NCBI GenBank assembly: GCA_017446225.1
Contig: JAFSRH010000024.1
Location: 1 to 49,647, forward strand
Length of the DNA stretch: 49,647 bases
Source: Oscillibacter sp.
GTDB lineage: Bacteria > Bacillota > Clostridia > Oscillospirales > Oscillospiraceae
Direction of reading: 5' to 3'
How positions within the stretch are numbered: the stretch's first letter is position 1; every line of letters begins with the position of its first letter. This document shows, in pieces, positions 6,813 to 44,309 of this stretch. The position numbers and the translations under genes were made by a program. Under the pieces are notes generated by a model. That model was not told where the DNA came from, made no database searches, and saw nothing but the letters and a program-made list of their open reading frames with translations.

Positions 6813-6826
6813 GAGGCTTCCTCCCC

Positions 6827-6866
6827 TTCCCGGCAGTTCCTGTCCTACTCTATGAACCGCCGGGAA
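6827..6866 (-). other. Intercistronic hairpin between spoVM and sipL
   Basis: TTCCCGGCAGTTC (6827-6839) pairs with GAACCGCCGGGAA (6854-6866), 12 of 13 positions plus one G-U pair, with a 14-base loop. It ends immediately before the sipL Shine-Dalgarno. It may protect or process the mRNA, or adjust SpoVM relative to SipL. No U-tract follows. Confidence 0.6.
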
Positions 6867-6875
6867 CGCTTATGC
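6847..6875 (-). promoter_or_regulatory. Possible SigE-type internal promoter before sipL
   Basis: On the minus strand GCATAAG (6875-6869), a 14-base spacer and CATAGAGT (6854-6847) resemble the SigE pattern. The -35 overlaps the spoVM stop codon. SpoIVA and its partners are mother-cell products in other spore formers. Confidence 0.33.
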
Positions 6876-6956
6876 CTCTTTCGCCTTCTTCATCCCGAAC
6901 AGACGCCGCAACAGCCCGCGCAAACTCTTCGGTGCTTTCCACACCACAATGTTCAT
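6870..6956 (-). CDS. spoVM: SpoVM, 28-residue curvature-sensing coat anchor peptide
   Basis: The ORF runs from ATG 6956 to TAA 6870 and encodes MNIVVWKAPKSLRGLLRRLF followed by GMKKAKEA. A strong AAAGGAG box lies 8 bases upstream. The Bacillus peptide begins MKFYTIKLPKFLGGIVRAML. Aligned residues include Lys7, Pro9, Lys10, Leu12, Gly14, Arg17 and Gly21; Pro9 is important for function in Bacillus. SpoVM is an amphipathic helix that lies in the forespore outer membrane, prefers positively curved membrane, and recruits SpoIVA. Sitting directly upstream of sipL-spoIVA strongly supports the call. It is too short for routine ORF finding and is likely to be missed in annotation. Confidence 0.88.
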   Translation of the reverse strand: MNIVVWKAPKSLRGLLRRLFGMKKAKEA

Positions 6957-6975
6957 GTTACCCGCTCCTTTCGCC

Positions 6976-7131
6976 TCAGCGTCTCCGGCAGCAGGCGCAG
7001 CCGCACGCAATCAGCAGAAACGCCGTCACGAACAGCAGCAGCCCCACCGGGAATATCGCGGCAATGAGAATCCCGGTCCCGAGCGCCGCCGCGCAGAGTC
7101 CCAGCACAAACAGTCCGCCTCTCCCGCACAT
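6976..7131 (-). CDS. Small membrane protein, first gene of the spoVM-sipL-spoIVA cluster
   Basis: I place the start at ATG 7131 because GGAGG lies just upstream; an in-frame ATG at 7161 is possible. The 51-residue product is MCGRGGLFVLGLCAAALGTG, then a hydrophobic stretch (ILIAAIFPVGLLLFVTAFLL) ending in CACCRRR. It resembles a two-pass or hairpin transmembrane protein with a cysteine/arginine tail. The stop is 19 bases before the spoVM ATG, so co-transcription is likely. Small hydrophobic proteins of this sort recur near sporulation genes in Clostridia, but I cannot name the family. It may be a sporulation membrane protein. Confidence 0.6.
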   Translation of the reverse strand: MCGRGGLFVLGLCAAALGTGILIAAIFPVGLLLFVTAFLLIACGCACCRRR

Positions 7132-7236
7132 CCGCCACGCCTCCTCTCCGTGCCCGGACACCGTCCGGTTACCCCAGTATATCCGCCCCCGCCTGTCCGG
7201 GTTCCGCGAAAAATCCGGCGGCGCGAAAATTTATGG

Positions 7237-7265
7237 TAGCCAAAACGCATAACTTGTGTTATCAT
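7237..7265 (+). promoter_or_regulatory. Possible SigA promoter of the phosphoesterase-mnmG-murT-gatD operon
   Basis: TAGCCA (7237-7242), a 17-base spacer and TATCAT (7260-7265). The -35 is weak. The -10 covers the ATG at 7264, which argues that this ATG is not the start of the downstream gene. Confidence 0.4.
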
Positions 7266-7314
7266 GTCGTGCGGGACGCCCGTCACGGGCGTTGCCGGAA
7301 GGAGGCGGGATACG

Positions 7315-8208
7315 TTGTCGGAGCGTAGAAAGCGGAGACACGGAAGAAGCAGACGGGAATACCGTCACCGTATGCTGTGGTTACGGCGTCTGCTTGGCGT
7401 GGCGCTGTTCCTGTTATTTTGCGCGGCCTTTTTCCGCTGGAGCAATCATTCCTTACAGGTAGCAAAATGGGAAGCCGCGTTCCCGGACCTCCCGGAAGGC
7501 TTTGACGGGTGCCGGGTGGCGGTCCTGTCCGACTTTCACGGGGCCTCCTTCGGGCTGGACGGCAGGGCGCTTTACCGGAAAGTGGCGCGGCAAAAACCTG
7601 ACTATATTCTTTTGCTGGGCGACTTGGAGGACAGTTTCCGGGGACCCGTGGAGGGGTACCCCGAGACGCTGGCCCGGGAGTTCTCCGCGCTGGCCCCGAC
7701 TTACTACGTCACCGGAAATCACGAGTGGGCCATTGGCGATGTCCCCGAACTGAAAGAGCGCCTCACCGTGAACGGCGTCCGGGTGCTGAGCAACGAGTTT
7801 GTCGCGCTGGAACGCGGCGGGGATGTCGTGGTTCTGGCGGGCATTGACGACCCGAACGGTTACGCCGACCAGAAGTCCCCGGAAGGCGTGGCCGCCGACC
7901 TGTACGCCGCCTACGGAGACCCGTTCTGGATACTGCTGGCCCACCGGAACAACCTCTTCCCGACCAAATACTGCTATCTGGGGGCCGATCTGGTGCTTTC
8001 CGGCCACGCGCACGGCGGCTTAATCCGCTTCCCGTTCACGGACGGCCTCGTGTCCACGGACCGCACTTGGTTTCCGAGCTGGACCGCCGGATTTTACGAA
8101 AAGAACGCTTCCCGGCTGTTCGTCACGCGCGGACTGGGCAACGCCGGGAAAACGTTCCGGCTCTTCAACCGTCCGGAAATCGCCGTGCTGACTTTCCGGA
8201 AAGCGTAA
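7315..8208 (+). CDS. Membrane-anchored calcineurin-like metallophosphoesterase
   Basis: I choose the TTG at 7315 because GGAGG at about 7300-7304 precedes it and the ATG at 7264 falls in the promoter. The product is about 297 residues. A basic N-terminus (SERRKRRHGRSRREYRHRML) leads into one transmembrane helix (LLGVALFLLFCAAFF). The catalytic domain then has the metal-binding series DFHGA, GDLED, GNHEW and HAHGG, as in YkuE/YaeI-type enzymes. Those enzymes act on phosphodiester or UDP-lipid substrates outside or near the membrane; the substrate here is unknown. mnmG begins 21 bases after the stop. Confidence 0.85.
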   Translation: MSERRKRRHGRSRREYRHRMLWLRRLLGVALFLLFCAAFFRWSNHSLQVAKWEAAFPDLPEGFDGCRVAVLSDFHGASFGLDGRALYRKVARQKPDYILLLGDLEDSFRGPVEGYPETLAREFSALAPTYYVTGNHEWAIGDVPELKERLTVNGVRVLSNEFVALERGGDVVVLAGIDDPNGYADQKSPEGVAADLYAAYGDPFWILLAHRNNLFPTKYCYLGADLVLSGHAHGGLIRFPFTDGLVSTDRTWFPSWTAGFYEKNASRLFVTRGLGNAGKTFRLFNRPEIAVLTFRKA

Positions 8209-8229
8209 GAAATATCAGAGGATGAGACT

Positions 8230-10125
8230 ATGAGAGAATTTCACGCCGGAGACTACGCGGTCATTGTCATTGGCGCGGGACACGCCGGAATCGAAGCGGC
8301 GCTCGCGGCGGCGCGTCTGGGACTGCGTACGGCCGTTTTCACGCTGAATCTGGACGCCGTTGGAAATATGCCCTGCAACCCCGCAATCGGCGGCACCGGG
8401 AAGGGACATCTGGTCCGCGAACTGGACGCGCTGGGCGGGGAAATGGCCAAGGCCGCGGACGCCTGTTGTATTCAGTACCGTTTGCTGAACAAGGGCAAGG
8501 GTCCGGCGGTGTGGAGCCTGCGCGCACAGGCCGACCGCCGCGCCTATCAGGAGCGCATGAAGCGCACCTTGGAACAACAGGACGGTTTGACCGTCCGACA
8601 GGGGGAAGTGACGGAAATCCGGAAAGACGCGGACGCCTTTCAAGTGGTCCTTGCCACGGGGGCGGCGTTCCGCGCCGGGGCGGTCATACTGGCCACCGGG
8701 ACCTATCTTTCCGGGCGGACCATTGTCGGGGAGTGGGTGGAGGAGTCCGGCCCGGACGGTATGCACCCGGCCGCGCGCCTGACGCCGTCCCTGTTGAAAC
8801 TGGGCCTTCCCCTGCGGCGTTTTAAGACCGGTACGCCGCCGCGCGTCAACCGCCGGAGCGTGGACTTTGACGAGATGGAGCTACAGGAGGGCGACACGCT
8901 CCCGGTCCCGTTTTCGTACTCCACCGCCGAGCCGCCGAAAAACCGGGCGGTCTGCTGGCTGACGTGGACCACCGAAGAGACCCGGCGTATCGTGGAAGCC
9001 AACCTGCACCGCGCGCCCATGTATTCCGGCGTCATACAGGGCGTGGGGCCGCGGTACTGCCCCTCGTTTGAGACGAAAATCGTCCGTTTTCCGGACAAGC
9101 TCCGTCACCAGCTATTCGTGGAGCCGATGGGCCTGAACACGGAGGAACTCTATATACAGGGCTTTTCCTCTTCCATGCCGGAAGAGGTACAGATCGCCAT
9201 GCTGCACAGCGTCCCCGGACTGCGCCGCGCGGAAATGACGCGTCCGGCCTACGCCATTGAGTACGACTGTATCGACCCGCTGGCCCTCCGCGCGACCATG
9301 GAAGTCAAGGCCGTTCCGGGGCTGTACGGGGCCGGACAGTTTAACGGCTCGTCCGGCTACGAAGAGGCCGCCGTACAGGGATTCGTGGCGGGCGTCAACG
9401 CGGCGCGGAAACTGCGCGGGGAACCGCCCTTTCTGCTTTCCCGTTCGGAATGCTATATCGGCGCGCTGATTGACGACCTTGTGACCAAGGGCACGGAAGA
9501 GCCATACCGGATGATGACGTCCCGGAGCGAATACCGCCTCTTACTGCGTCAGGACAACGCCGACCAGCGTCTGACGCGGCGCGGGTACGAAATCGGACTG
9601 ATTCCGGAAACGCGTCTCCGGGCCGTGGAACGCAAATATGAAGCGGTTCAACGGGAAATCACGCGGCTGGAACACACGGGACTGTCCGTTTCCCCGGAGC
9701 TGTCCGCACTGCTGGACGCCCGGGACGCCGGAACGGTCCCGGACGGAACGTCCCTGCTGTCCCTGCTCAAACGTCCGCGGATTTCCTATGACGATTTGGC
9801 CCCGTTTGACCCCGGACGTCCGGACCTGTCGGCCGATATCCGCGAACAGGTCGAGATTTCCGTCAAGTACGAGGGCTACATCCGGCGGCAGAAGAAACAG
9901 GTCGAAGAATTTCAGCGTATGGAGAACCGGACCCTTCCGCCGGATATCGACTATTTGTCTATACAGGGCCTGCGGCTGGAGGCCCGGGAAAAGCTCTCCG
10001 CCGTCAGACCGTTCAGTCTGGGACAGGCGGCGCGGATTTCGGGCGTCTCCCCGGCGGATATCGCCGCGCTGGCCATTTTTCTGGAACGGTCCGGGAACCG
10101 TCACAAAGGAGCGTGCGTGTCATGA
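8230..10125 (+). CDS. mnmG: tRNA uridine-5-carboxymethylaminomethyl modification enzyme MnmG
   Basis: At 631 residues it has the family's usual length. The FAD-binding motif is VIGAGHAGIEAALAAARLGL near the N-terminus, followed by PCNPAIGGTGKGHLVRELDA. It also has the conserved FNGSSGYEEAAVQGFVAGVN and the DNADQRLTRRGYEIGLI region, with a helical C-terminal domain. With MnmE it installs cmnm5 at U34 of tRNAs reading split codon boxes, using FAD and methylene-THF. The usual neighbours mnmE and rsmG are not in the window. The start follows AGAGGATG. It overlaps the next start by 4 bases (ATGA). Confidence 0.97.
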   Translation: MREFHAGDYAVIVIGAGHAGIEAALAAARLGLRTAVFTLNLDAVGNMPCNPAIGGTGKGHLVRELDALGGEMAKAADACCIQYRLLNKGKGPAVWSLRAQADRRAYQERMKRTLEQQDGLTVRQGEVTEIRKDADAFQVVLATGAAFRAGAVILATGTYLSGRTIVGEWVEESGPDGMHPAARLTPSLLKLGLPLRRFKTGTPPRVNRRSVDFDEMELQEGDTLPVPFSYSTAEPPKNRAVCWLTWTTEETRRIVEANLHRAPMYSGVIQGVGPRYCPSFETKIVRFPDKLRHQLFVEPMGLNTEELYIQGFSSSMPEEVQIAMLHSVPGLRRAEMTRPAYAIEYDCIDPLALRATMEVKAVPGLYGAGQFNGSSGYEEAAVQGFVAGVNAARKLRGEPPFLLSRSECYIGALIDDLVTKGTEEPYRMMTSRSEYRLLLRQDNADQRLTRRGYEIGLIPETRLRAVERKYEAVQREITRLEHTGLSVSPELSALLDARDAGTVPDGTSLLSLLKRPRISYDDLAPFDPGRPDLSADIREQVEISVKYEGYIRRQKKQVEEFQRMENRTLPPDIDYLSIQGLRLEAREKLSAVRPFSLGQAARISGVSPADIAALAIFLERSGNRHKGACVS

Positions 10126-11450
10126 GAAAGCCCTTGGCCATTCTTGCCTGTAAACTGGGCTACTTTTTCGGAAAACTCGTGGGGAAAGGAAGTTCCCTTC
10201 CCGGCAAACTGGCTTTACGGATCTGTCCGGACATTCTCGGACAAATCCGCCTCCCGTCCACGGTGATTGCCGTCAGCGGCTCCAATGGCAAAACGTCCAC
10301 GGTGGAGATGATCGCCGCGATTCTGCGCGCCGATGGACGGAAGGTCATTTATAATAAAGAAGGTTCCAATCAGATAGAGGGCGTGGCGACCATGATTCTG
10401 ACCCACGCGAGCCTGTCCGGGAACGTCCGCGCCGATGTCCTCCTGATGGAAAGCGATGAGCGTTACGCCGCGCGCACGTTCCAATTCTTCCGCCCCACGC
10501 ATTTTGTCATAACGAACCTCTACCGGGACCAGTTGACCCGGAACGGACACCCGGAGAGCGTGTATGACGCCCTGCGTCCGGCGCTGGCCCCGGAAACGGA
10601 ACTGCTCCTGAACGCCGATGACCCGCTGTCGTCCTGTTTCGGACAGGACCGGCAAAACGTAACATGGTTCGGGCTGGACCGTTGCGGCATTTCCGTGCCG
10701 TCCCCGACCGGCGTCTACCATGACGGCGCGTACTGTCCGGTATGCGGCGGGCGCATGGAGTACGCCTACGCGCACTATAACCATATCGGCGCGTGGCGTT
10801 GTACGGCCTGCGGACGCGAACGCCCCCGCACACAGTACGCCGTCACCGCGCTGGACCTGCAAACGGGCGTCCTGACGATTGACGACACTGTAAAAGTGAA
10901 GCTCGCCTTCCGGAGCATTTATAATGTCTACAACATTCTCGCGGCGTACGCGATCTGCCGGCGTTGCGGGGTGTCCTCGGCCACGGCGGCGGGCGTGATT
11001 GAGAACTATGTCCTGAAAAACGGCCGAATGCGGACCTTCCGTCTGGGGGACCATCACGGAACCCTGCTGACCAGCAAGCATGAAAATTCGATTGCCTATG
11101 ACACCAACCTTCGCTATGTACAGGACCACGGGAAGGACTGCGTGGTAGTCGTGATTGTGGACGCCGTCAGCCGGAAATACTTTACCAGCGAAACAAGCTG
11201 GCTATGGGATATCGACTTTGACCGGCTGAACAGTCCGAACGTGAAACGGGTCATTCTTTCGGGCCGCTACTGTAACGACCTCGCGGAACGCTTCGCGTAC
11301 AGCGCGCTCCCGGCGGAGAAGTGGGAAGTCGTGGAGACGATTCCGGCGGCGGCCGGGACGCTCAAGGCGTCCGGCAGTGAGGAAATTTACGTGCTGACCT
11401 GTTTTTCCGACCGCGACAAGTTCCTGACGCTGACCGAACGGGAGGCCTGA
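10122..11450 (+). CDS. murT: Lipid II isoglutaminyl synthase, Mur-ligase-like subunit MurT
   Basis: I use the ATG at 10122, which overlaps the mnmG stop and has AAAGGAG 10 bases upstream, rather than the GTG at 10113. The 442-residue product has the Mur-ligase P-loop SGSNGKTSTVEMIAAIL, the NLYRDQLTRNGHPESVYDAL segment, a four-cysteine zinc ribbon (CPVCGGRMEY ... CTACGRERP), and a C-terminal DUF1727 domain with DTNLRYVQDHGKD. MurT activates the alpha-carboxylate of D-Glu in lipid II with ATP and receives ammonia from GatD, giving D-isoglutamine. gatD follows after 3 bases. Confidence 0.93.
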   Translation: MRKPLAILACKLGYFFGKLVGKGSSLPGKLALRICPDILGQIRLPSTVIAVSGSNGKTSTVEMIAAILRADGRKVIYNKEGSNQIEGVATMILTHASLSGNVRADVLLMESDERYAARTFQFFRPTHFVITNLYRDQLTRNGHPESVYDALRPALAPETELLLNADDPLSSCFGQDRQNVTWFGLDRCGISVPSPTGVYHDGAYCPVCGGRMEYAYAHYNHIGAWRCTACGRERPRTQYAVTALDLQTGVLTIDDTVKVKLAFRSIYNVYNILAAYAICRRCGVSSATAAGVIENYVLKNGRMRTFRLGDHHGTLLTSKHENSIAYDTNLRYVQDHGKDCVVVVIVDAVSRKYFTSETSWLWDIDFDRLNSPNVKRVILSGRYCNDLAERFAYSALPAEKWEVVETIPAAAGTLKASGSEEIYVLTCFSDRDKFLTLTEREA

Positions 11451-33989: not shown

Positions 33990-34018
33990 TTGAAAAGAGG
34001 CGGAAATGGTGATATAAT
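33990..34018 (+). promoter_or_regulatory. SigA promoter of the giant NTPase/HEPN operon
   Basis: TTGAAA (33990-33995), 17 bases, then perfect TATAAT (34013-34018). The ATG at 34059 follows AAGGAGG at 34045-34051. Confidence 0.85.
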
Positions 34019-34058: not shown

Positions 34059-37000
34059 ATGTCAAGACTTATCATGAAATCGCTCTCAAAATTGCGGAGC
34101 GGAAACGCCGTGTCCGTCACCTATGGAGACGTAACGCACCCGGAAACACTTTCCGGAACCGTGGCGGAGAACGAGACCGACTACGATCCCAGCGGCGCGC
34201 CGGTGGGAGGAACGCTTGTGCTGTCAGATGAGACCGGACAAGAGCTGTTCTTAAGCTACAGCATCATTCACGGCTGGAAACAGGTCGGCAAGATAGCCGC
34301 ACCGGCGGCCGCGCCCACACCCGCGCCCGCGCCGGCGGAACCCAAAATTGAAACCGCCTCCCTGCTCAGGGACGAAATATCCGTTGCGGGACTGGCGCTC
34401 AGTGACCGGAAAATCCGGGACCTGTTCGGTCAACTCCCCCGAAAGGAACGGAAAAAACTTGACAGCACGTACAGTAAATTTCAGTATGGCGTGAAATGTA
34501 CGGACCGGGACCGGATGTCAGCGGCGGCCAAAGCCGCTTACCAACTCATTACGCAGCCACAGACGCCCATGCAGGACGGCTGGAGCGCGGACGCGGCCTG
34601 TTTTTGCGGGGCGTTGCTGGCCCGCGCGGGTCTGTATTACGCGGACGTGTTTTTAGTCGGACGCTGTTTCCACGAGGCCGCCCTGTGCGCCTTCCGGGAA
34701 AAACTTTGGTCCAAGGCGGGCGCTTACGCCGCGCTGGCTCTGCTCGAACCTGATTCCAGACACCCCGAAGAGTCTGGGAAAGAGGACCTGTTGAACATTC
34801 TGACCGTCAGCGCCCTGAACGCCAAGGACCTTTCGGCCATTCGACTGCTGGACAGGCGTTTGGGAATCGCCTTCCGGCCGGACCTTTCCCGCGTGCTTGC
34901 CGCCCTGATTGCCAGTAAGCCGCTCCCGGAGGCCGTCAACGTACAGGACACCGAACGTACGCTTGCCGCGCTGGCCCCGTTCTTCCCCGGGAACGAAAGC
35001 GCGTTGGAAATCCGCCGCGTGACGTCCAACGCGCCGGACGAGCCAACGCCGGAGGCCGCGCCGATTTCCGAATTGCCGTCCCTCTCCAAAGTGCCCGGAC
35101 GCCGTTACACCGGCTGGATCAGCAAACTGGACTGGGGCGCGCGCCGGGGCGAAATCAACTCCCCCAACGGACGGTGTTACTTTGCCTATCAGGAGACGGA
35201 AAAACCGCTGGCGCAGAAGCTGGAAGAAAATTTAAACAACCGTTTGGACCCTACCCCGTTATGGGTCAGCTTTGTGCCCCGGGAAGGCTGGGCCTACGAA
35301 ATCCGGGCCACGGAATCCCCGCTGGTCCGGGCGCGTCAGGCGGTGGCGCGCGGGGAGTACGAGAACGCCATTCTCCTGTGCGAAGAGGCCGCGCTGACCC
35401 CGGACGCCCAAAACGCAATGGGCGACTTGGTACAATTCGCGCTGGAAAAGTTCCGTATGGACCGGCAGACCGACACCTTATATGAAGTGGAATCCTTTTT
35501 CCGTGCCCATCAGGACATCTATCCGCAGGAGCCGTGGCGGATTGCCGCCGTTGGGCAACTGTACTACGGGCTGTGTCAGTTCCCGGTCTCGCGGGAGTAT
35601 CTGGGCCGCGCGCTGGAAGCCGGACCCATCAGCGCGAAGGTACGTTCCACGTTTTTGGCGCAGTATATCCGCTCCTGTATCCGCAGTTACTACGAAAAAC
35701 TCGACCTCTCGCTCATGGAGGACGTGAAACGGAGCGCGCAGGAGTGGCTTTCCCTCTACCACAGTGACGAACTCAGCGGGGACGAACAGAACGCCCGTTT
35801 CTATCCGCGAATCCTGATTTGGAAATGTCGGGCGGAATGCGCGTTAAATCTGCCCGATGAGGCGGAGGAAGACCTTCGTCTTGCTTCGGCGGCGCTCCCG
35901 CCTTACGATGAACGTCTGGCGCGGTCGTACGCGGCGCTGGAAGAGACGCGCAGACGGGTGAGTCAAAACCGGCCGCAGACGGAAGCCGTCCCCGATGAGC
36001 CAAACGCCCCGCGGGAACCGGACGCTTCCGCGGAGACGTTCCCGGAAACGTCCGAGCCGGACGGGGAGGAGTCGCCGGAGGACTACCCCGAGGAAGAGGA
36101 GGACGAGCCGGAACCCGGCGACGAGAGCATGGAGACCGTACCCTATCAGGACCGGGACGGGTGGGCCGCGCTCGGCCTCACAAAACAGGACGTGGTCAGC
36201 CGCGCCATGGACTTTGACGGCCCGGACGCCGTACCGCTTGCCGTGGCCTATCTGAAAGCCGCCTCTACGCTCCATTCCGCGCTGCTGCCCGTCTACCGGA
36301 TCGCCGCCATTGCCGTCAGCGACCCTATGATGACGCAGGATTACTCCATCTCCGCGCTCCTCAACGCCTTCGAGAACATGGACTCCGATTACGCCCGCCT
36401 GACAGACTTCTGCATGGCCGCGGCCTTTTTACGCGCGTCCTTCCTCTCCGGGCGCGGCTGGGACTTCACCGCCCGCGGACTTCGCGACAGTATCGCGGTC
36501 GTACGGGACCTCCCCGCCCTTCAGGGCGCCTGTGACACGCTGGAAGAGTTCCGCGCCCTCTCCGGTCAGGCTATGGACATTTACGCCGATTACCGGAATC
36601 AGGACGTCAACCGGATTCGGGACGAATTGGACGAGGTTGTGCACCACGCGGAAGAAGTGTACCGCCGCTTTGTGCTCACCCCGCCCCGGGAGGGCGTACG
36701 TTTCGCGCGGCTTCTGGAGACGAAAAAAATCGCCTTCGCCAAAGACAACTGGCTCTCTATGATGATACGCCACGTCATGGAGCGTGACCACGCCGCCCTT
36801 GAACAGGAACAGGACGCCTTTGTGGAACGCTTCCTGAACGGCGTCCCGCAGTTCGCCCACAAGCAGTTGAGCGCTGACGCCGTGGACGAGTTCATAGAGG
36901 ACTGCTGGACGCAGGCCGCGAAACGTCTCCGGCTCCAGAAGGAACACACGGATTTACAGGGCGACCGCCGGAACAATCTCCGCTCCAACATTACCGAAAT

Positions 37001-39767
37001 GCTGGACGTGATCTGCCACTGGTACGCGCTCTCCGCCCGGAACGCCGGTCTGACGTGGCGTACGCCGGAAGGGGAGGCCGCCGCCGCGAATCTGCGCCCC
37101 CGCCTGTCCGGACAGTTGGAGGAACTCGCCGCCTATTGTCAGGACACCATTCCGCAGGCTTCCAACCCGGAAGAACGGCTCGGCCTTCGTATCCTTGGCC
37201 ACACCGCGCAGGAACTTTTCGACCGTCTGGAAGGCAGATGGAGCTTTGAACAGGAAAACTTTTTCTATGTCACCTTCCTGAAAAGCGACGATATTCTCCT
37301 TGACGAAGAGTTTTTGCCGGACTTCTCCTCCACCTTCTGCGCCCTTCCGAAATTCAACGTGCTGGCGCGGATACGCGCCCACGCCGAACGTGACCTTCCC
37401 GACTGGCAGACCCGCCTTGACCAGATTTACGGACCCGACAAGACTTCCCATAACTACGGTGCCGCCGCCCGGATTCTGGACTACCTCCGCGCCGTTGGCC
37501 GGGAGAACGCCGTCAACATCCCCGAAAATCCGGAGCAGTTCGACACGCAGGGACGTTTACAGGCCGGCGTCCGCTTCCGCAGTTTCTTGGAGGCCTACGC
37601 CCTCGCCATGAACTACGGGCAGATTATGCACTCCGACAACTTCTGCTCCACCCTTGAGGATACCGTGCGCTACTGGTACGTGGACTGCCTGAAAAGCAGA
37701 AATTACGGCTTCTTTAACCGCATTCTGACGCAAGCTATGGACAAAATCCACGAGAGCGCGCAGGAGTACGAATCCCTTCTCAGCGCCCAGCTTGACGCCC
37801 TCATCAGCGGCAATCAGGACCAGTTCGACCAGCACCCCGGTTACGTGGACGCCATCCGCGAACAGATTGCCAACCAAAACTTCATTGTCGCCGAAGACTG
37901 GATGCGCCGTATCCGTGTGGGCGACTTCTCGCTGGACATCCAGCAACCGGAGGTGCTCGGATACCTTGAGGACTTCTGGAACAATTACGCGGCCGTTTAC
38001 AACCGCGTCTCGGACGCCAGCCGCTCCTTGAGCGCCCTTCTGGGCGGACGCCGCGTCCGCAACAAGGACGCCAAAGGCGCGCAACAGCTTATTGACAACT
38101 GGCTCAACAATGGCAGTCCCTCCAATCCGGAACGTATCACGCAACTGCTCAACCGTCTGGGATGGAACAACGTCCAGACCACCCCGTACCGCTTCCCCGC
38201 CGACCCCCGCGCCGAACTGTACCATGTCGTACAGGACGCGGAAGCCGCCAATATGACCGCGCCGCTTCATCCCATCGCGGCCTTCGGTTCCCGGCTGGCC
38301 CGGGAGGGTATGTACGTGGCCTGCCTCTACGGCTCCTATGACTGCGACCGGCTCTATGAGAAAATCCGCGCGCTGGACGCGCTGGACGGTAACAAAGTCA
38401 TTCTTCTGGACTACGCCCTCGGCGGCGTGGACAGACGCGAACTGGCCCGGAAAATCAAACAGCGGGAAAGCGGTCTCCGGAACGTCTACCTTGTCATTGA
38501 CCGCGTCCTTCTCTGCCACCTCGCCAACAACTACAATGAAAACCTGATTAACCGTATCCTGATGGCGGACGGGATTCCGTTTTCGTACTGTCAGCCGTAC
38601 GTTGTGGAGTCGTCCCACACCATGCCCCCGGAAATCTTCATCGGCCGGAAAGACGAACTGCTCCGCATTGAGGACCCGAACGGCGTAAACCTCATTTACG
38701 GCGGGCGTCAGCTCGGCAAGTCGGCGCTCTTCAAGAAGGCCCGCGGCGATTTGGACGGCAATCAAGGCCGCCGTGCCGTACTGGTCGACATCAAAGACTG
38801 TGACTGCGCCGCCGCCGCCCGTAGGCTGTCCATGGAGCTGATGGAGCTGGAACTTCTCCCGGACGATGGTCCCGCCATTGAGGACTGGGACGAACTGGCC
38901 GATTTGATCCGCCGCTGTCTGCGCCGGAATGAGGAGATCCGCTACCTGCTCATTATGCTGGACGAGGCCGACGCCTTTATTTCCGATTGCAGTCAGTACA
39001 ATTACAAACCGCTGGTAAACCTGAAAAACATTCAGCAAGTCCTTCCCGGAAGGTTCAAGTTCGCGCTGGCGGGCCTTCACAACATCATCCGGTTCAACCG
39101 GGAAGTCGCGCTCGGAAAAAACGCCGTCATTACGCAGTTCTCTTCCCTGAAAATCACGCCCTTCCGTACCCCGGAGGCACAGGAACTCTTGACGGTCCCC
39201 CTGAGTTACCTTGGACTGTCCCTGCCCAGCCGCGTCACCGTCTCGCAGATTCTGGCCACCGTGAACTATTTCCCCGGGCTGATCCAACTCTACTGCCAGA
39301 AGCTGATCGAGTCGCTCCGCGCCCCCGATTACGCCGGATATGACGTCAAGCGCACTCCGCCCTATGTCATCACGGACGACCATCTCCGGCGCGTCATGGC
39401 CGACAAGGAGTTTCTCGAACAAATCCGTGAAAAGTTTGAAATCACGCTCCGGCTGGATCAGGACCAAGGGAGCCGTTACTATCCGCTGACGCTCCTGATC
39501 GGCTGGATGTACACGGACGAACCGTCACGCAGCGGTTACACGGCGGAAGATATTCTCCGGCACGCGAAAGACCTCTCGATTGCCCCCCTGCGGGACCTGT
39601 CCGAAGAACAGGTGGACGCGCTGTTACAGGAGCTTCAGGACCTGAACATCCTGCGGAGCGTCAGTCAGGATACCTATCTGCTGGCCTCGAAGAACTTCCG
39701 CGATCTGCTCGGGTCCGATGATGAAATCTTTGAAAAGCTCTCCCGGATGGGGGAGGCGAAAGTATGA
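34059..39767 (+). CDS. Giant multidomain P-loop NTPase (STAND/AAA-like, 1902 residues)
   Basis: The start is the ATG at 34059 with AAGGAGG; the longer ORF is antisense to proS. Visible order: a small beta domain (1-75); a Pro/Ala linker; a cold-shock-like barrel at about 345-410 (RRYTGWISKLDWGARRGEIN); TPR-like helices at about 420-640; an acidic linker at about 645-695; a long helical region to about 1400; a Rossmann-like segment at about 1410-1520 (MYVACLYGSYDCDRLYEKIR); then the NTPase. The NTPase opens PPEIFIGRKDELLRIEDPNG, with Walker A GGRQLGKS (1548-1555) and Walker B LLIMLDEADAF (Asp1635-Glu1636). A winged-helix-like C-terminus follows. It overlaps the HEPN-motif gene by 4 bases. I infer a sensor-switch protein, perhaps in defence. 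Confidence 0.75.
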   Translation: MSRLIMKSLSKLRSGNAVSVTYGDVTHPETLSGTVAENETDYDPSGAPVGGTLVLSDETGQELFLSYSIIHGWKQVGKIAAPAAAPTPAPAPAEPKIETASLLRDEISVAGLALSDRKIRDLFGQLPRKERKKLDSTYSKFQYGVKCTDRDRMSAAAKAAYQLITQPQTPMQDGWSADAACFCGALLARAGLYYADVFLVGRCFHEAALCAFREKLWSKAGAYAALALLEPDSRHPEESGKEDLLNILTVSALNAKDLSAIRLLDRRLGIAFRPDLSRVLAALIASKPLPEAVNVQDTERTLAALAPFFPGNESALEIRRVTSNAPDEPTPEAAPISELPSLSKVPGRRYTGWISKLDWGARRGEINSPNGRCYFAYQETEKPLAQKLEENLNNRLDPTPLWVSFVPREGWAYEIRATESPLVRARQAVARGEYENAILLCEEAALTPDAQNAMGDLVQFALEKFRMDRQTDTLYEVESFFRAHQDIYPQEPWRIAAVGQLYYGLCQFPVSREYLGRALEAGPISAKVRSTFLAQYIRSCIRSYYEKLDLSLMEDVKRSAQEWLSLYHSDELSGDEQNARFYPRILIWKCRAECALNLPDEAEEDLRLASAALPPYDERLARSYAALEETRRRVSQNRPQTEAVPDEPNAPREPDASAETFPETSEPDGEESPEDYPEEEEDEPEPGDESMETVPYQDRDGWAALGLTKQDVVSRAMDFDGPDAVPLAVAYLKAASTLHSALLPVYRIAAIAVSDPMMTQDYSISALLNAFENMDSDYARLTDFCMAAAFLRASFLSGRGWDFTARGLRDSIAVVRDLPALQGACDTLEEFRALSGQAMDIYADYRNQDVNRIRDELDEVVHHAEEVYRRFVLTPPREGVRFARLLETKKIAFAKDNWLSMMIRHVMERDHAALEQEQDAFVERFLNGVPQFAHKQLSADAVDEFIEDCWTQAAKRLRLQKEHTDLQGDRRNNLRSNITEMLDVICHWYALSARNAGLTWRTPEGEAAAANLRPRLSGQLEELAAYCQDTIPQASNPEERLGLRILGHTAQELFDRLEGRWSFEQENFFYVTFLKSDDILLDEEFLPDFSSTFCALPKFNVLARIRAHAERDLPDWQTRLDQIYGPDKTSHNYGAAARILDYLRAVGRENAVNIPENPEQFDTQGRLQAGVRFRSFLEAYALAMNYGQIMHSDNFCSTLEDTVRYWYVDCLKSRNYGFFNRILTQAMDKIHESAQEYESLLSAQLDALISGNQDQFDQHPGYVDAIREQIANQNFIVAEDWMRRIRVGDFSLDIQQPEVLGYLEDFWNNYAAVYNRVSDASRSLSALLGGRRVRNKDAKGAQQLIDNWLNNGSPSNPERITQLLNRLGWNNVQTTPYRFPADPRAELYHVVQDAEAANMTAPLHPIAAFGSRLAREGMYVACLYGSYDCDRLYEKIRALDALDGNKVILLDYALGGVDRRELARKIKQRESGLRNVYLVIDRVLLCHLANNYNENLINRILMADGIPFSYCQPYVVESSHTMPPEIFIGRKDELLRIEDPNGVNLIYGGRQLGKSALFKKARGDLDGNQGRRAVLVDIKDCDCAAAARRLSMELMELELLPDDGPAIEDWDELADLIRRCLRRNEEIRYLLIMLDEADAFISDCSQYNYKPLVNLKNIQQVLPGRFKFALAGLHNIIRFNREVALGKNAVITQFSSLKITPFRTPEAQELLTVPLSYLGLSLPSRVTVSQILATVNYFPGLIQLYCQKLIESLRAPDYAGYDVKRTPPYVITDDHLRRVMADKEFLEQIREKFEITLRLDQDQGSRYYPLTLLIGWMYTDEPSRSGYTAEDILRHAKDLSIAPLRDLSEEQVDALLQELQDLNILRSVSQDTYLLASKNFRDLLGSDDEIFEKLSRMGEAKV

Positions 39768-40822
39768 ACGCCGACAACATCTGGTGGGGACAGATCGGCA
39801 ATTCCCTGCGCCTGCTGGCCCGTGTGACGGAACGCCTCCGGGACCACCGTTCGGCGGTGTTGTCCATGCCCGTACGCTTCCCGTGGCGCGAACGCTTCTA
39901 CCGGGAAATCGACATCCGGCGCGCGCCGTACAGCGTGGCGCGGCGTCTGAAACGGATCGCGTGGCCCGGCAAGGGCGCGCCCGGACAATTCGTCCTGACG
40001 ACCCTGTGTCCGCTGGACGTTCAGGCCGATTACTGGCCCGGGCAGACGTACGGCGAATACCTCGGTTCCCGCCGCAATCTGGCCATGAACGACTACGACA
40101 TCTGGATTACGGGCGTACACCGGAAGTCCGACCTCATGAAATGGGTCGAGTTCGTGACGCAGTATCACGCCGCCGTCGGGGAGGCGGAGCCTCACGCCGT
40201 GTTCCTCATTGAATACGACGGCCCCCCGATGAAAACCGGCGGCGTGGAGCAGATATCGTGTCAGGTGGAGCGTTACGACTGCCGGGTGTTCTGTCTGGAA
40301 ATGGCGGCGGAAGTGTCGGGAACGGTCCTGCGGGACTATCAGGCCGAACTCGCGCTGAGAATCGGGGGCAGTCAGCCGGAACTTTGCGCGGCGCTTCTGG
40401 AGACGGGAAACCGTCTCCCGGAAGCCCCGCTGGACACGGCCCGTCAGGTACTCTCCCGGGCGCGCGGTTCGGACGGGTATCCCTTCCCCGCGCTGAGCGA
40501 AACCGAATTGACCAGCGCGGTATGGCTCGCGGCGGTGGTGCTCCTGTTCCCGCTCATGGAACGTTACCGGATTGCCTTTATCGAGCGGCACAAGATGGAA
40601 CTGTCCCGCTTTCTGCCGATTTCCAATTCCAACGGCGATGAGGTGACGGAACCGTTTGATCTGGAAATCGGGGCGTTATGTTATATCATTGCCAATCTGC
40701 GGGTACATCTGTTCGCGCCGGCCGAAGTGAACGGTCTGCGCCTCTGCCGCCGGATACGGAACCAGCTTGCGCACAACAAGCCCGTGGACTGCGCGGACGT
40801 GGAAGCGGTCATGAGCCTGTAA
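39764..40822 (+). CDS. Protein with C-terminal HEPN-type RNxxAH motif, partner of the giant NTPase
   Basis: This 352-residue protein is translationally coupled to the NTPase gene (ATGA overlap). The N-terminal 230 residues are unrecognised and include NDYDIWITGVHRKSDLMKWV and EPHAVFLIEYDGPPMKTGGV. The C-terminal 130 residues are helical and end LRLCRRIRNQLAHNKPVD. RNQLAH (332-337) is an R-x4-H motif as in HEPN ribonucleases, which cut RNA in toxin-antitoxin, abortive-infection and CRISPR effectors. HEPN domains also occur without nuclease activity. The natural reading is effector plus NTPase switch, but no experiment supports it. A hairpin follows the stop. Confidence 0.72.
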   Translation: MNADNIWWGQIGNSLRLLARVTERLRDHRSAVLSMPVRFPWRERFYREIDIRRAPYSVARRLKRIAWPGKGAPGQFVLTTLCPLDVQADYWPGQTYGEYLGSRRNLAMNDYDIWITGVHRKSDLMKWVEFVTQYHAAVGEAEPHAVFLIEYDGPPMKTGGVEQISCQVERYDCRVFCLEMAAEVSGTVLRDYQAELALRIGGSQPELCAALLETGNRLPEAPLDTARQVLSRARGSDGYPFPALSETELTSAVWLAAVVLLFPLMERYRIAFIERHKMELSRFLPISNSNGDEVTEPFDLEIGALCYIIANLRVHLFAPAEVNGLRLCRRIRNQLAHNKPVDCADVEAVMSL

Positions 40823-40953: not shown

Positions 40954-41622
40954 ATGCGCTACCGGCACGAGTGGAAACATGAACTGTCATGGATGGACGT
41001 ACTGGTAATTCGTCAGCGCCTCCGGGCGGTGGCACAGCCCGACCCCCATGCCGTGGACGGGCGGTATCTGATACGCAGTCTCTATTTTGACACCCTCTCC
41101 GATGGCGCCCTCCGGCAAAAACTGGACGGCGTCAACCGGCGTGAAAAGTTCCGGATTCGTTACTACAATCACGATCCGCACGTGATACACCTTGAAAAGA
41201 AAAGCAAGCTGAACGGTCTTGGGACCAAAGTCAGCGCCACCCTGACGGCAACGGAAGCGCAGTCCATTGTCAAAGGGGACCTTGACTGGATGCCGCTTTC
41301 GGGCCGTCCGCTGGTACAGGAACTGTACAGCAAGCTCCGTTCCGGGCTGCGTCCGCGGACCATTGTGGACTACACGCGGGAGCCGTACATTTACCCGCCC
41401 GGAAATGTGCGTGTCACTTTTGATTACGACATCCGGACCGGTCTGTGTTCCACGGATTTCCTGAATCCGGACTGCCCCACGATTCCCGCCGGGAATGCGC
41501 CGATTCTGATGGAAGTCAAATGGGACGCCTACCTTCCCGACATCATCCGTGACGCCGTACAAGTCCCCGGACGCCACGCCTCCGCCTTTTCAAAATACGC
41601 GCAGTGCCGTGTTTACGACTGA
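40954..41622 (+). CDS. VTC-domain polyphosphate polymerase
   Basis: This 222-residue protein follows AAAGGAG. It has the triphosphate-tunnel (VTC) pattern of alternating basic and acidic strands: WKHELSWMDVLVIRQRLRAV, RYLIRSLYFDTLSDGALRQK, RREKFRIRYYNHD, VIHLEKKSK, a VTFDYDIRTG strand and PILMEVKWDAYLP near the end. VTC domains polymerise ATP-derived phosphate into polyphosphate. The gene begins the conserved bacterial trio VTC-DUF4956-CotH. A TATACT -10-like element is at 40910-40915, but no good -35 is present. Confidence 0.9.
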   Translation: MRYRHEWKHELSWMDVLVIRQRLRAVAQPDPHAVDGRYLIRSLYFDTLSDGALRQKLDGVNRREKFRIRYYNHDPHVIHLEKKSKLNGLGTKVSATLTATEAQSIVKGDLDWMPLSGRPLVQELYSKLRSGLRPRTIVDYTREPYIYPPGNVRVTFDYDIRTGLCSTDFLNPDCPTIPAGNAPILMEVKWDAYLPDIIRDAVQVPGRHASAFSKYAQCRVYD

Positions 41623-41643
41623 GTGAATAAGGAGAACGCTGTT

Positions 41644-42315
41644 ATGACATTCAATGACATTTTCAAGTCCAACTTTCTGGACAATATCGCCGCCGTCACC
41701 CCGCTGGACATGGTCCTTTCCCTCCTGCTCGCCTTCGGGGTCGGCCTGTTCATCTTCTACGTGTACCGGAAAACGTATCAGGGCGTGCTTTACTCGTCCA
41801 GTTTCGGCGTCACGCTCGTGGCTCTGACCATGATTACCACACTGGTTATTTTGGCCGTGACCAGTAACGTGGTACTGTCTCTGGGCATGGTCGGCGCGCT
41901 TTCGATTGTGCGTTTCCGTACGGCCATCAAGGAGCCGCTCGACATTGCGTTTCTGTTCTGGTCCATTGCCGTGGGCATCGTACTGGCCGCCGGCATGATT
42001 CCGCTTGCCGTCATTGGAAGCGTGTTCATTGGCATAATTCTGCTTTTGTTCGTCAACCGGAAATCCGCCGTCAATCCCTACATCGTGGTGTTACAGTGTG
42101 ACGGTCCCGAGAGCGAAAAACTTGCCATGGAACATCTCAAAGAACATACGCTCCGCTGTGTGGTCAAGAGCAAGACGGCACGCAAAGGGGCCGTGGAAGT
42201 CAACGCCGAAATCCGCCTGAAGGACGAAAGCACCGATTTTATCAATACGCTTGCCGGACTGGACGGTGTCAGCAGTGCGGTGCTCGTCAGCTACAACGGG
42301 GATTACATGGGATGA
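41644..42315 (+). CDS. DUF4956 membrane protein
   Basis: The ATG at 41644 is chosen because AAGGAG precedes it; the frame is open back to 41623. The 223-residue product has four hydrophobic segments (about 22-150), including SNVVLSLGMVGALSIVRFRT, a signature of DUF4956, which also has AIKEPLDIAFLFWSIAVGI. A soluble C-terminal ferredoxin-like domain follows (VEVNAEIRLKDESTDFINTL). It regularly sits between VTC and CotH genes; its biochemical role is unknown, and passage of phosphate or polyphosphate across the membrane is one idea. It overlaps the CotH start by 4 bases. Confidence 0.88.
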   Translation: MTFNDIFKSNFLDNIAAVTPLDMVLSLLLAFGVGLFIFYVYRKTYQGVLYSSSFGVTLVALTMITTLVILAVTSNVVLSLGMVGALSIVRFRTAIKEPLDIAFLFWSIAVGIVLAAGMIPLAVIGSVFIGIILLLFVNRKSAVNPYIVVLQCDGPESEKLAMEHLKEHTLRCVVKSKTARKGAVEVNAEIRLKDESTDFINTLAGLDGVSSAVLVSYNGDYMG

Positions 42316-44309
42316 GTACGCACAAAAATTTGGACCGTATCAGCATAGCGGTTCTGACGCTGTCCCTGCTGTTGACGGCGCTTTTTATGAACGGCGCCGC
42401 GCTGGGACTGGAAAGCGCTTCCCATGGGCTGGGTTACGAGAAGCGTTTGTTTGACACGTCAAAAGTTCACAGCCTCTCCATTGTCATAGATGACTGGGAC
42501 GGCTTTTTGGATACGTGCGAAAATGAGGAATACGCCTCCTGCTCCGTGGTCATTGACAACGAAAACTATAAAAACGTGGGCCTTCGCGCAAAGGGAAACA
42601 CGTCCCTGACCACGGTCCGTTCCATGGACAGCGACCGTTACAGTATGAAAATTGAGTTTGACCACTACGAGAGCGGAAAGACGTATCACGGTCTGGACAA
42701 ACTCTGCCTGAACAACGTCATTCAGGACAACACCTATATGAAAGATTACCTGACCTACCGTATGATGGGGGAATTTGGCGTACACGCGCCGCTGTGTTCC
42801 TATGTATGGATTACGGTCAACGGGCAAGACTGGGGGCTGTACTTGGCGGTCGAGGGCGTGGAGGACTCCTTTTTACAGCGCAATTACGGCAATGATTACG
42901 GGGAACTGTATAAACCGGACTCGCAGAGCTTCGGGGGCGGCGGTCCGGGACGCGGACGGGATTTCCGGATGTCGGAATTTATGAACGAACTGAACGGAGA
43001 AAGCGGTACGGACAATACGGAAACCCGTACCGGACAGCGTGAAATGGCGCAAAATAACGCCGTTTCAACCGGCAACGGCGTTCCGTTCCCACCCGGCAAC
43101 GGCTTTCCGTCCCCTCCGGACACGGACGCCGCCGGAAACGGTTTTCCGTCCCCTCCGGACATGGACGCTACCGGCAACGGTTTTCCCAACCGGGGCAATA
43201 TGCGCGGAATGGGCAGTGATGACGTAAAGCTGAAATATTCCGATGACAATGCCGACAGTTACGGCAGTATCTTTGAAAACGCGAAAACCAATGTCACGGC
43301 GGCGGACAAATCCCGTTTGATTGCCTCTTTAAAGTCGCTCGGGGAGAGGGAGAGTCTGGAAAGCGTGCTCGACATGGAAACCGTACTCCGCTATTTCGTG
43401 GTGCACAATTATGTGGTCAATGGCGACAGTTACACCGGCTCCATGATACACAATTACTACCTGTACGAAAAAGACGGACAGTTATCTATGATTCCATGGG
43501 ATTACAACCTTGCTTTCGGCGGTTTTCAAGGCGGAAGCGCGTCCGGGAGCGTCAACGATCCCATTGACACGCCGCTGTCCGTCTCCGGTGACGGAGACCG
43601 GCCTATGGCGGACTGGTTTGTACAGCAGGACGATTACACGGAATTGTACCATCAATATTTTCGTGAATTTCTGGATTCCGTGGACGTCTCCGGCCTGATT
43701 GACACCACCCGCGCATTGATTGCGCCCTATGTCGAACGGGACCCCACAAAATTCTGTACCTATGAAGAGTTTGAAACAGGCGCGGAAACATTGCGTACGT
43801 TCTGCGGCCTCCGGACAGAAAGCGTACGGGGACAGCTTGAAGGCTCCATTCCCGCCACGGATGAAGCGCAGCTTGAGGACAGTTCCGCCCTGATTGACGC
43901 CTCGTCCCTGACGCTGTCCGACATGGGGAGTATGAATCGCGGCGGCGGTTTCAGAGACGGATTTCACAGAACACGTGCCGCCGGTACGGAAGCCTCTGAC
44001 GGAACAGGCGAAAGCCCCGCGTCTCCGGATGGAACCGCCGCAAGCGGCGTAACGCGTCCGGCGTTTCCGGGCAGTACCAGCGCGGAAGCCTCTGACGGAA
44101 CAGACGAAAGCCCCGCGTTTCCGGATGGAGCCGCCGCAAGCGGCGTAACGCGTCCGGCGTTTCCGGACGGACAGCGCGGTCCCGGCAGTGCGTCCGGACC
44201 AAGCGCTTTGTCAAGGGAAATATGGATGTTGCTGGGCGTATCCTGCGCCGTACTCTGCGCCGGACTGCTTGCCGCCGCAAGACCGTTTCATAGGAAATAC
44301 CGGAATTAA
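42312..44309 (+). CDS. CotH-family atypical protein kinase, membrane-attached, with repeats
   Basis: This 665-residue protein has an N-terminal signal/anchor helix (ISIAVLTLSLLLTALFMNGA). The CotH kinase core has GLRAKGNTSLTT, FDHYESGKTYHGLDKLCLNN, MKDYLTYRMMGEFG, WGLYLAVEGVEDSFLQRNYG and the IPWDYNLAFGGFQGG metal-binding segment. The core is interrupted at about 210-300 by a Gly/Pro/Asn-rich insertion with GNGFPSPPD repeats. The C-terminal 100 residues carry two Ser/Pro/Gly-rich repeats before a final transmembrane helix (EIWMLLGVSCAVLCAGLLAA) and basic tail. CotH proteins phosphorylate coat or surface proteins. It probably faces outward with both ends membrane-bound. Confidence 0.92.
   Translation: MSTHKNLDRISIAVLTLSLLLTALFMNGAALGLESASHGLGYEKRLFDTSKVHSLSIVIDDWDGFLDTCENEEYASCSVVIDNENYKNVGLRAKGNTSLTTVRSMDSDRYSMKIEFDHYESGKTYHGLDKLCLNNVIQDNTYMKDYLTYRMMGEFGVHAPLCSYVWITVNGQDWGLYLAVEGVEDSFLQRNYGNDYGELYKPDSQSFGGGGPGRGRDFRMSEFMNELNGESGTDNTETRTGQREMAQNNAVSTGNGVPFPPGNGFPSPPDTDAAGNGFPSPPDMDATGNGFPNRGNMRGMGSDDVKLKYSDDNADSYGSIFENAKTNVTAADKSRLIASLKSLGERESLESVLDMETVLRYFVVHNYVVNGDSYTGSMIHNYYLYEKDGQLSMIPWDYNLAFGGFQGGSASGSVNDPIDTPLSVSGDGDRPMADWFVQQDDYTELYHQYFREFLDSVDVSGLIDTTRALIAPYVERDPTKFCTYEEFETGAETLRTFCGLRTESVRGQLEGSIPATDEAQLEDSSALIDASSLTLSDMGSMNRGGGFRDGFHRTRAAGTEASDGTGESPASPDGTAASGVTRPAFPGSTSAEASDGTDESPAFPDGAAASGVTRPAFPDGQRGPGSASGPSALSREIWMLLGVSCAVLCAGLLAAARPFHRKYRN
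43070..43190. repeat. 39-bp coding tandem repeats in the CotH insertion
   Basis: A 39-base unit encoding GNGFPSPPDTDAA recurs two to three times (GNGFPSPPDTDAA, GNGFPSPPDMDAT, GNGFPNRG) within the kinase insertion. Confidence 0.8.
43988..44165. repeat. 96-bp coding direct repeat in the CotH C-terminal linker
   Basis: GGAAGCCTCTGACGGAACAG starts at 43988 and a near-identical copy starts at 44084. Each encodes EASDGTxESPAxPDGxAASG plus VTRPAFP. The high DNA identity suggests recent duplication. Confidence 0.85.

Follow-up and report, generated by a model that had tools for sequence, protein, structure and literature searches.

The two-gene locus

The window analysed here, i.e. the whole stretch of 49,647 nucleotides from Oscillibacter sp. 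(assembly GCA_017446225.1, contig JAFSRH010000024.1, positions 1 to 49,647 of the forward strand), carries a two-gene unit on the plus strand. Gene 1 encodes a multidomain protein of 1902 amino acids (aa) with a C-terminal AAA/STAND-like ATPase module and overlaps by the four bases ATGA with gene 2, which encodes a protein of 352 aa with a HEPN-like domain at its C-terminus (Table 1). A reading made earlier from the letters alone (the sequence-only reading) had noted a consensus promoter, a 5.7-kb gene with Walker A and Walker B motifs and, behind the ATGA overlap, a gene with an RNQLAH motif; all of these were confirmed. The second promoter hexamer is preceded by TG, and the region contains six promoter-like sites, against 1.6 expected in shuffled sequences. 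The source genome (2.18 Mb, 78 contigs) contains a single gene 1 match. Compared with the related locus L007 (loci and genomes are designated by L and G numbers), the rates of non-synonymous to synonymous substitution (dN/dS) were 0.075/0.815 (~0.09) for gene 1 and 0.080/0.686 (~0.12) for gene 2, which points to purifying selection on both.

Table 1. Features of the two-gene unit, with positions in the window
Feature	Position	Strand	Basis
σ70-like promoter TTGAAA-17-TATAAT with TG extension	33990..34018	+	11/12 consensus positions
Gene 1 (1902 aa), several domains with an AAA/STAND-like module at the C-terminus	34059..39767	+	open reading frame (ORF) and homologues
Candidate sensor: N-terminal part (aa 1-700), diverging fast, with TPR-like helices that stay below cut-off	34059..36158	+	identity to L115
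Acidic linker, aa 653-693	36015..36137	+	sequence
Conserved domain before the ATPase, about aa 1406-1510	38274..38588	+	alignment A1
AAA/STAND-like ATPase module (aa 1406-1898), including a winged-helix-like tail	38274..39752	+	profiles; tail judged by eye
Walker A GGRQLGKS, aa 1548-1555	38700..38723	+	G1548, G1549, G1553, K1554 invariant in 26/26 loci
Walker B DE, aa 1635-1636	38961..38966	+	invariant in 26/26 loci
Gene 2, 352 aa, uncharacterised N-terminal domain and C-terminal HEPN-like domain	39764..40822	+	ORF, family profile
HEPN-like domain, aa 244-352	40493..40819	+	family profile; hhalign to Swt1-like HEPN 90%
R-x4-H motif RNQLAH, R332-H337	40757..40774	+	R and H invariant in 22/22 rows

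Co-occurrence and co-divergence of the two genes

The sequence-only reading had expected the two families to recur together, and this was borne out. With single-sequence queries, both genes were detected in the same four of 295 genomes of the order. The ATPase matched 36 of 398 genomes of the phylum; 11 of these matches were full-length and strong (E-value 5.9e-127 or better) and 25 were weak and partial. The gene 2 profile A3 matched 12 of the 398 genomes, namely all 11 with the full ATPase module and, weakly and partially, G659. Were the genes independent, the chance of the 11-genome overlap would be ~1e-20; since rows from 10 of those 11 genomes were part of A3, the scan mainly adds the absence of gene 2 in 386 of the other 387. 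Presence was tested independently with profile A2, which held none of the nine newly fetched strong members, and gene 2 was found directly downstream of the ATPase gene in all nine (E-value 1e-17 to 4e-28). A tenth stretch was fetched from G318, which has a weak partial ATPase match, and lacks gene 2; its 1183-aa protein (L065, 3155-6706) matches only the domain preceding the ATPase (E-value 6.6e-8), without the ATPase itself. Weak partial ATPase matches were set aside (25 of the 36 phylum genomes, mostly ORFs of ~415-500 aa, from which G318 differs, and 9 of 11 family genomes).

Gene 1 and gene 2 diverged together, with a Mantel correlation of 0.94 across 26 loci and 0.87 across 21 loci (0 of 9999 permutations). 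Loci in which gene 2 was lacking, broken or cut off, duplicates and one locus not entered (L022) were left out of this set (L010, L012, L020, L022, L024, L079, L081, L083, L084, L086, L117 and L118). At L012 (G031, about 6149-10839) gene 2 is frame-broken and the upstream ATPase part is open; gene 1 also shifts frame further upstream. G868, a genome of the same family as the window, carries two diverged pairs (L115 and L116), and the R-x4-H motif is kept in both. One of the G868 copies reads RNRLMH in place of RNxLAH.

The ATPase module and the N-terminal part of gene 1

Neither gene 1 nor gene 2 passes the curated cut-offs of Pfam or NCBIfam, and single-sequence PDB searches with the window proteins gave nothing useful. 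The module was described from alignment A1, which covers the C-terminal ~490 aa of gene 1 in 12 rows. These rows matched the Pfam families AAA_22 (11/12), ATPase_2 (10), AAA_16 (10), nSTAND1 (4) and NB-ARC (1); the window row itself stays under every Pfam cut-off. In the PDB, the ATPase profile matched best with the STAND sensor PH0952 (6mfv, E-value 0.0012), yet over 38 profile positions only, and next with Cdc6 proteins. PH0952 is not known to have a HEPN partner. Besides the Walker residues listed in Table 1, R1550 showed no variation in the 26 loci. A GR-x-x-E motif before Walker A marks STAND NTPases; in A1, the corresponding G125 and R126 are invariant in 12/12 rows and E129 is found in at least 90%.

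Compared with L115, identity per 100-aa window of gene 1 was 23-34% in aa 1-700 and 64-81% in aa 1401-1900. That the N-terminal 700 aa diverge fastest is consistent with a sensor role. The sequence-only reading had assigned to this part a cold-shock-like barrel, TPR-like helices and an acidic linker. The linker stands, TPR matches appear only below the Pfam cut-offs (E-value 0.05-0.8), and no Pfam cold-shock domain (CSD) match was found in gene 1. A candidate barrel at aa 335-430 scored 0.4% against 20 CSD sequences and is not supported at that place. At the N-terminus, weak matches over 23 columns were obtained against the same 20 sequences for aa 1-95 (24.9%) and aa 20-85 (31.5%), each above 200 of 200 column shuffles; aa 1-140 scored 16.2%, which was equalled by 1 of 200 column shuffles. 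An S1/cold-shock domain in gene 1 is thus at best weakly indicated. The Pfam family PF00313 (cold-shock) had no match in 13 of 13 genomes (G000 and 12 relatives), against 43 positives of 61 in a sample of the phylum.

In 17 ATPase proteins from outside the window's order, the ATPase is followed by a further 303-347 aa. As a set, these tails match the ATPase module with 92.5%, compared with at most 0.6% in 30 column-shuffled controls, and by this profile comparison they look like a degenerate second AAA copy. Such a copy is absent from the window protein and its lineage.

The HEPN-like domain of gene 2

The arginine and histidine of the R-x4-H motif are kept in all gene 2 rows, which span the phylum of the window and plasmids of Pseudomonadota, Actinomycetota and Rhodothermota. 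Judged from this conservation and from the two G868 pairs, the residues suggest catalysis. In hhalign, the gene 2 HEPN profile matched Swt1-like HEPN with 90% (200 column shuffles reached at most 7.6%), the match being confined to 46 columns around the motif. Pfam HEPN_Swt1 was touched weakly by 7 of the 22 gene 2 members (best E-value 0.0093), below the cut-off where scores were given. A plain hidden Markov model (HMM) built from ten Swt1-like HEPN domains recovered none of the gene 2 proteins; hence, the relation of gene 2 to Swt1-like HEPN is distant. The N-terminal part of gene 2 had been suspected by eye to be a degenerate AAA domain, which the scores (0.5% and 1.3%) do not support.

Genomic surroundings and distribution

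As the sequence-only reading had stated, the pair lies among housekeeping genes. No defence gene is among the 15 other ORFs scanned in the window, which include SpoIVA, MnmG, MurT, ProRS, VTC and CotH. A VTC-domain protein, a DUF4956 membrane protein and a CotH kinase-like protein lie consecutively at 40954-44309 and probably form a separate unit. No tRNA genes were found in the window and the GC content shows no shift. In the window, the pair adjoins proS; in L006-L010, it adjoins an ORF named metG-like by eye. An empty insertion site was found in none of 29 other genomes of the genus, where contig breaks could hide adjacency. A VTC match of at least 50% identity was present in 12 of these 29; the strong proS match was on another contig in 11 and ~265 kb away in G737.

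The nearest relatives are in five Oscillibacter assemblies with 79-87% identity (one cut off; full-length values 80-87%), three of which are labelled as sheep or goat foregut. Gene 2 was found in 3 of 61 genomes of the genus and in 2 of the 31 with at least 90% completeness and at most 5% contamination. Counting strong matches only, the ATPase was found in 2 of 150 genomes of the family. Gene 2 of L059 had no match in plasmids. The pair looks accessory and patchy, and in the window it is linked to no recognised element; by homology, its relatives appear as a cross-phylum family scattered over several phyla.

Plasmid relatives and the link to pPIWI_RE

Searching plasmids for the ATPase module gave 24 records, of which 16 were inspected. 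In 9 of the 16 loci, a HEPN gene 2 homologue lies next door; six of these nine are rows of the profile used and had first been recognised by BLAST to gene 2 of the window or its relatives, and three (L080, L082 and L085) are independent. The ATPase protein lacks an adjacent HEPN gene in the other seven (Brasilonema, Euzebya, Burkholderia, Cupriavidus, Bosea and two Streptomyces, one of the latter with the ATPase gene in two frames), which indicates that it has other partners.

Several of these loci were viewed individually. On the Brasilonema plasmid (L020, 5156-12361) the ATPase frame opens, by eye, with an apparently whole σ70 factor, and the ATPase protein is followed by a phospholipase-D/helicase-like gene and no HEPN gene. 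In two Burkholderiales loci (L081, 14418-17186; L086, 14454-17255) the second gene encodes a protein of 922 or 933 aa, respectively, without HEPN motif; further downstream in L086, a helicase-like piece was seen by eye behind a transposase-like ORF.

In Azospirillum oryzae (L021, 2426-12196) a 3256-aa protein carries pPIWI_RE_X (E-value 2.7e-16), MID (5.1e-12) and RNaseH (4.2e-30) domains ahead of the ATPase, and gene 2 bears an extra AAA_33 domain (E-value 7.4e-15). A pPIWI_RE query gave 11 plasmid records, 7 of which also have the ATPase module (two Azospirillum, one Microvirga and four Bradyrhizobium elkanii with identical scores), a count biased by the query having been taken from the fusion protein. 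The four cyanobacterial pPIWI_RE plasmid records have no ATPase module; conversely, plasmids of Agrobacterium, Bosea and Methylocystis have the ATPase protein and no pPIWI_RE match. A HEPN gene comes next in all four inspected loci with pPIWI_RE and ATPase (L021, L080, L082 and L085). In these, pPIWI_RE is fused to or split just ahead of the giant ATPase, with the HEPN gene downstream; in A. ramasamyi, two genes make up the pPIWI_RE part.

Defence-type neighbours of relatives

The pair in L056 lies beside 18 regularly spaced 36-nt repeats, taken for a CRISPR array; a 504-aa ORF next to the repeats, taken for a cas gene, had no Pfam match. Neighbours are GmrSD_N and a helicase in L064, a DEAD/MZB helicase in L061, HerA (not a defence-specific protein) in L062, and ThiF and patatin in the Agrobacterium plasmid locus. 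Across the five remaining distant loci in the phylum (L057, L058, L059, L060 and L063), the scan covered a single neighbour, which lies in L058.

Comparison with known systems

The sequence-only reading had matched the pair to no system it could name. This holds for named systems: the pair is unnamed in Pfam, NCBIfam and PADLOC, and with PADLOC-DB 2.0.0 no family was found for either window protein at an E-value of 1. Relatives gave weak matches only, to PDC-S27 (1.2e-4, 1 of 12 ATPase rows), PDC-S01 (0.0034, 4 of 12 ATPase rows) and PD-T4-5 (0.0084, 1 of 22 gene 2 rows). In the open-licence literature no description of this pair was recognised, an absence which counts for little as only open-licence papers were covered. 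The statement does not hold for the ingredients, which had already been described together: a 2013 table (Anantharaman et al., PMC3710099) lists fusions of Swt1-like HEPN to STAND-ATPase, TPR and S1 (Npun_F6454, MED222_16016 and Desac_1927). Compared by the description in that table, the likely common features are a Swt1-like HEPN with an Arg/His motif, a STAND-type ATPase and helical repeats. The differences are that the parts are fused there and on two genes here, and that S1 is listed there, whereas the corresponding signal in gene 1 is weak.

According to PMC12839542, the defence system Hma, which is related to type 1 BREX, has a DUF499 ATPase, often with an N-terminal HEPN, and resembles the pair in combining a STAND/ORC-type AAA ATPase with a HEPN RNase, here a predicted one. 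It differs in that no DUF499, methyltransferase or helicase match was found in the pair or the 15 scanned neighbours, and in that HEPN is here on a separate protein and at the C-terminus. TOTE conflict systems, as described in PMC12458937, consist of a TPR-cold-shock protein, a TBP and an effector; they share with the pair a large TPR-like protein and an effector gene, whereas here no TBP gene was noticed, an ATPase module is present and the cold-shock signal is weak. The pPIWI_RE system was published as a three-gene neighbourhood in PMC3702460, the main text of which mentions HEPN and AAA 0 times. On plasmids of Azospirillum, Microvirga and Bradyrhizobium, pPIWI_RE is either fused to relatives of the pair or directly followed by them, and by their predicted genes these operons exceed the published one; in contrast, the scanned ORFs of the window give no pPIWI_RE match.

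Interpretation

We read the pair, with a probability of roughly 0.6, as an NTP-switched (nucleoside triphosphate) sensor that would control a HEPN ribonuclease, the two forming one bicistronic conflict module of the abortive anti-phage type. The reading as switch and effector is based on the co-occurrence and co-divergence of the genes, the invariant ATPase and R-x4-H residues, the patchy spread and the defence-type neighbours of some relatives. The same switch and effector had been proposed by the sequence-only reading, and the co-occurrence, the co-divergence and the invariant motif speak for it; a defence role we infer from the neighbours of relatives only. RNase activity and the trigger are likewise what we infer, as are abortive infection and the control that gene 1 would exert on gene 2. 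Gene 1 would be a large sensor and scaffold, the fast-changing N-terminal helical part of which may recognise an infection cue and the C-terminal STAND/ORC-like ATPase of which would act as the switch. The putative HEPN endoribonuclease encoded by gene 2 would be kept inactive by, or complexed with, gene 1. A trigger might then lead to nucleotide exchange or oligomerisation of the ATPase, by which HEPN domains would be brought together and RNA would be cleaved, so that growth would stop before the phage completes.

Several observations weigh against this. Gene 2 is broken in one member of the order (G031), and seven inspected plasmid loci do without the HEPN gene. Gene 2 of the window alone has no Pfam match, the hhalign match is short, and the Swt1-like HEPN model misses the family. 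No phage relative was found, gene 2 of L059 was likewise unmatched in phages, and no close relative was found in viral contigs. The scanned ORFs of the window offer no defence gene, and the defence-type neighbours of relatives were counted without a control rate, so that this link is suggestive only.

A stress-triggered toxin module, in which gene 2 would be a HEPN toxin and gene 1 a large NTP-dependent antitoxin or chaperone answering to starvation or plasmid loss instead of phage, is rather unlikely. HEPN toxins are known (PMC3710099), and the overlap of the genes, their tight pairing and the carriage of relatives on plasmids would fit; however, a partner of 1900 aa whose ATPase residues are invariant and whose N-terminus diverges would be costly for an antitoxin, and defence-type genes adjoin some relatives. 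We also regard it as unlikely that the ATPase protein is an ORC/Cdc6-like platform loading DNA or ribonucleoprotein in restriction-type systems, with the HEPN-like domain as a non-catalytic adaptor to other effectors. The Cdc6 proteins among the PDB profile matches point this way, as do L021, with its fusion of pPIWI_RE to the ATPase and a downstream gene 2 that bears the extra AAA_33, and the other neighbours, one of them a helicase, in the seven HEPN-less plasmid loci; conservation of the motif R and H in every row and in both G868 pairs suggests catalysis instead. A housekeeping pair for RNA processing or translation quality, to which the adjoining proS and metG-like ORFs and the lack of a GC shift would be suited, is highly improbable given that 58 of 61 genus genomes have no gene 2 match (31 of the 61 being at least 90% complete with at most 5% contamination), that 148 of 150 family genomes have no strong ATPase match and that the relatives spread over several phyla.

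Beyond the sensor-controlled HEPN ribonuclease proposed for the window, a wider and more tentative proposal is that the giant ATPase could be an immune switch platform of ancient origin which is shared across phyla and can exchange its partners. These might be a HEPN ribonuclease alone, as proposed for the window, a pPIWI_RE fusion with a HEPN-kinase, in which guide-dependent recognition would trigger RNA cleavage, or, in a cyanobacterium, a σ70-like N-terminus with a phospholipase-D/helicase gene. If so, one switch would serve protein, nucleic-acid-guided and transcription-linked sensing. If the reading of the pair itself is correct, the pPIWI_RE fusion in relatives would link an Argonaute-like protein to an RNA-cutting abortive effector, a link that can be tested. 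Bacterial immunity would also gain an unnamed, widespread STAND-HEPN pair which is missed by PADLOC models and which, with its place among housekeeping genes here, would escape a search guided by defence islands.

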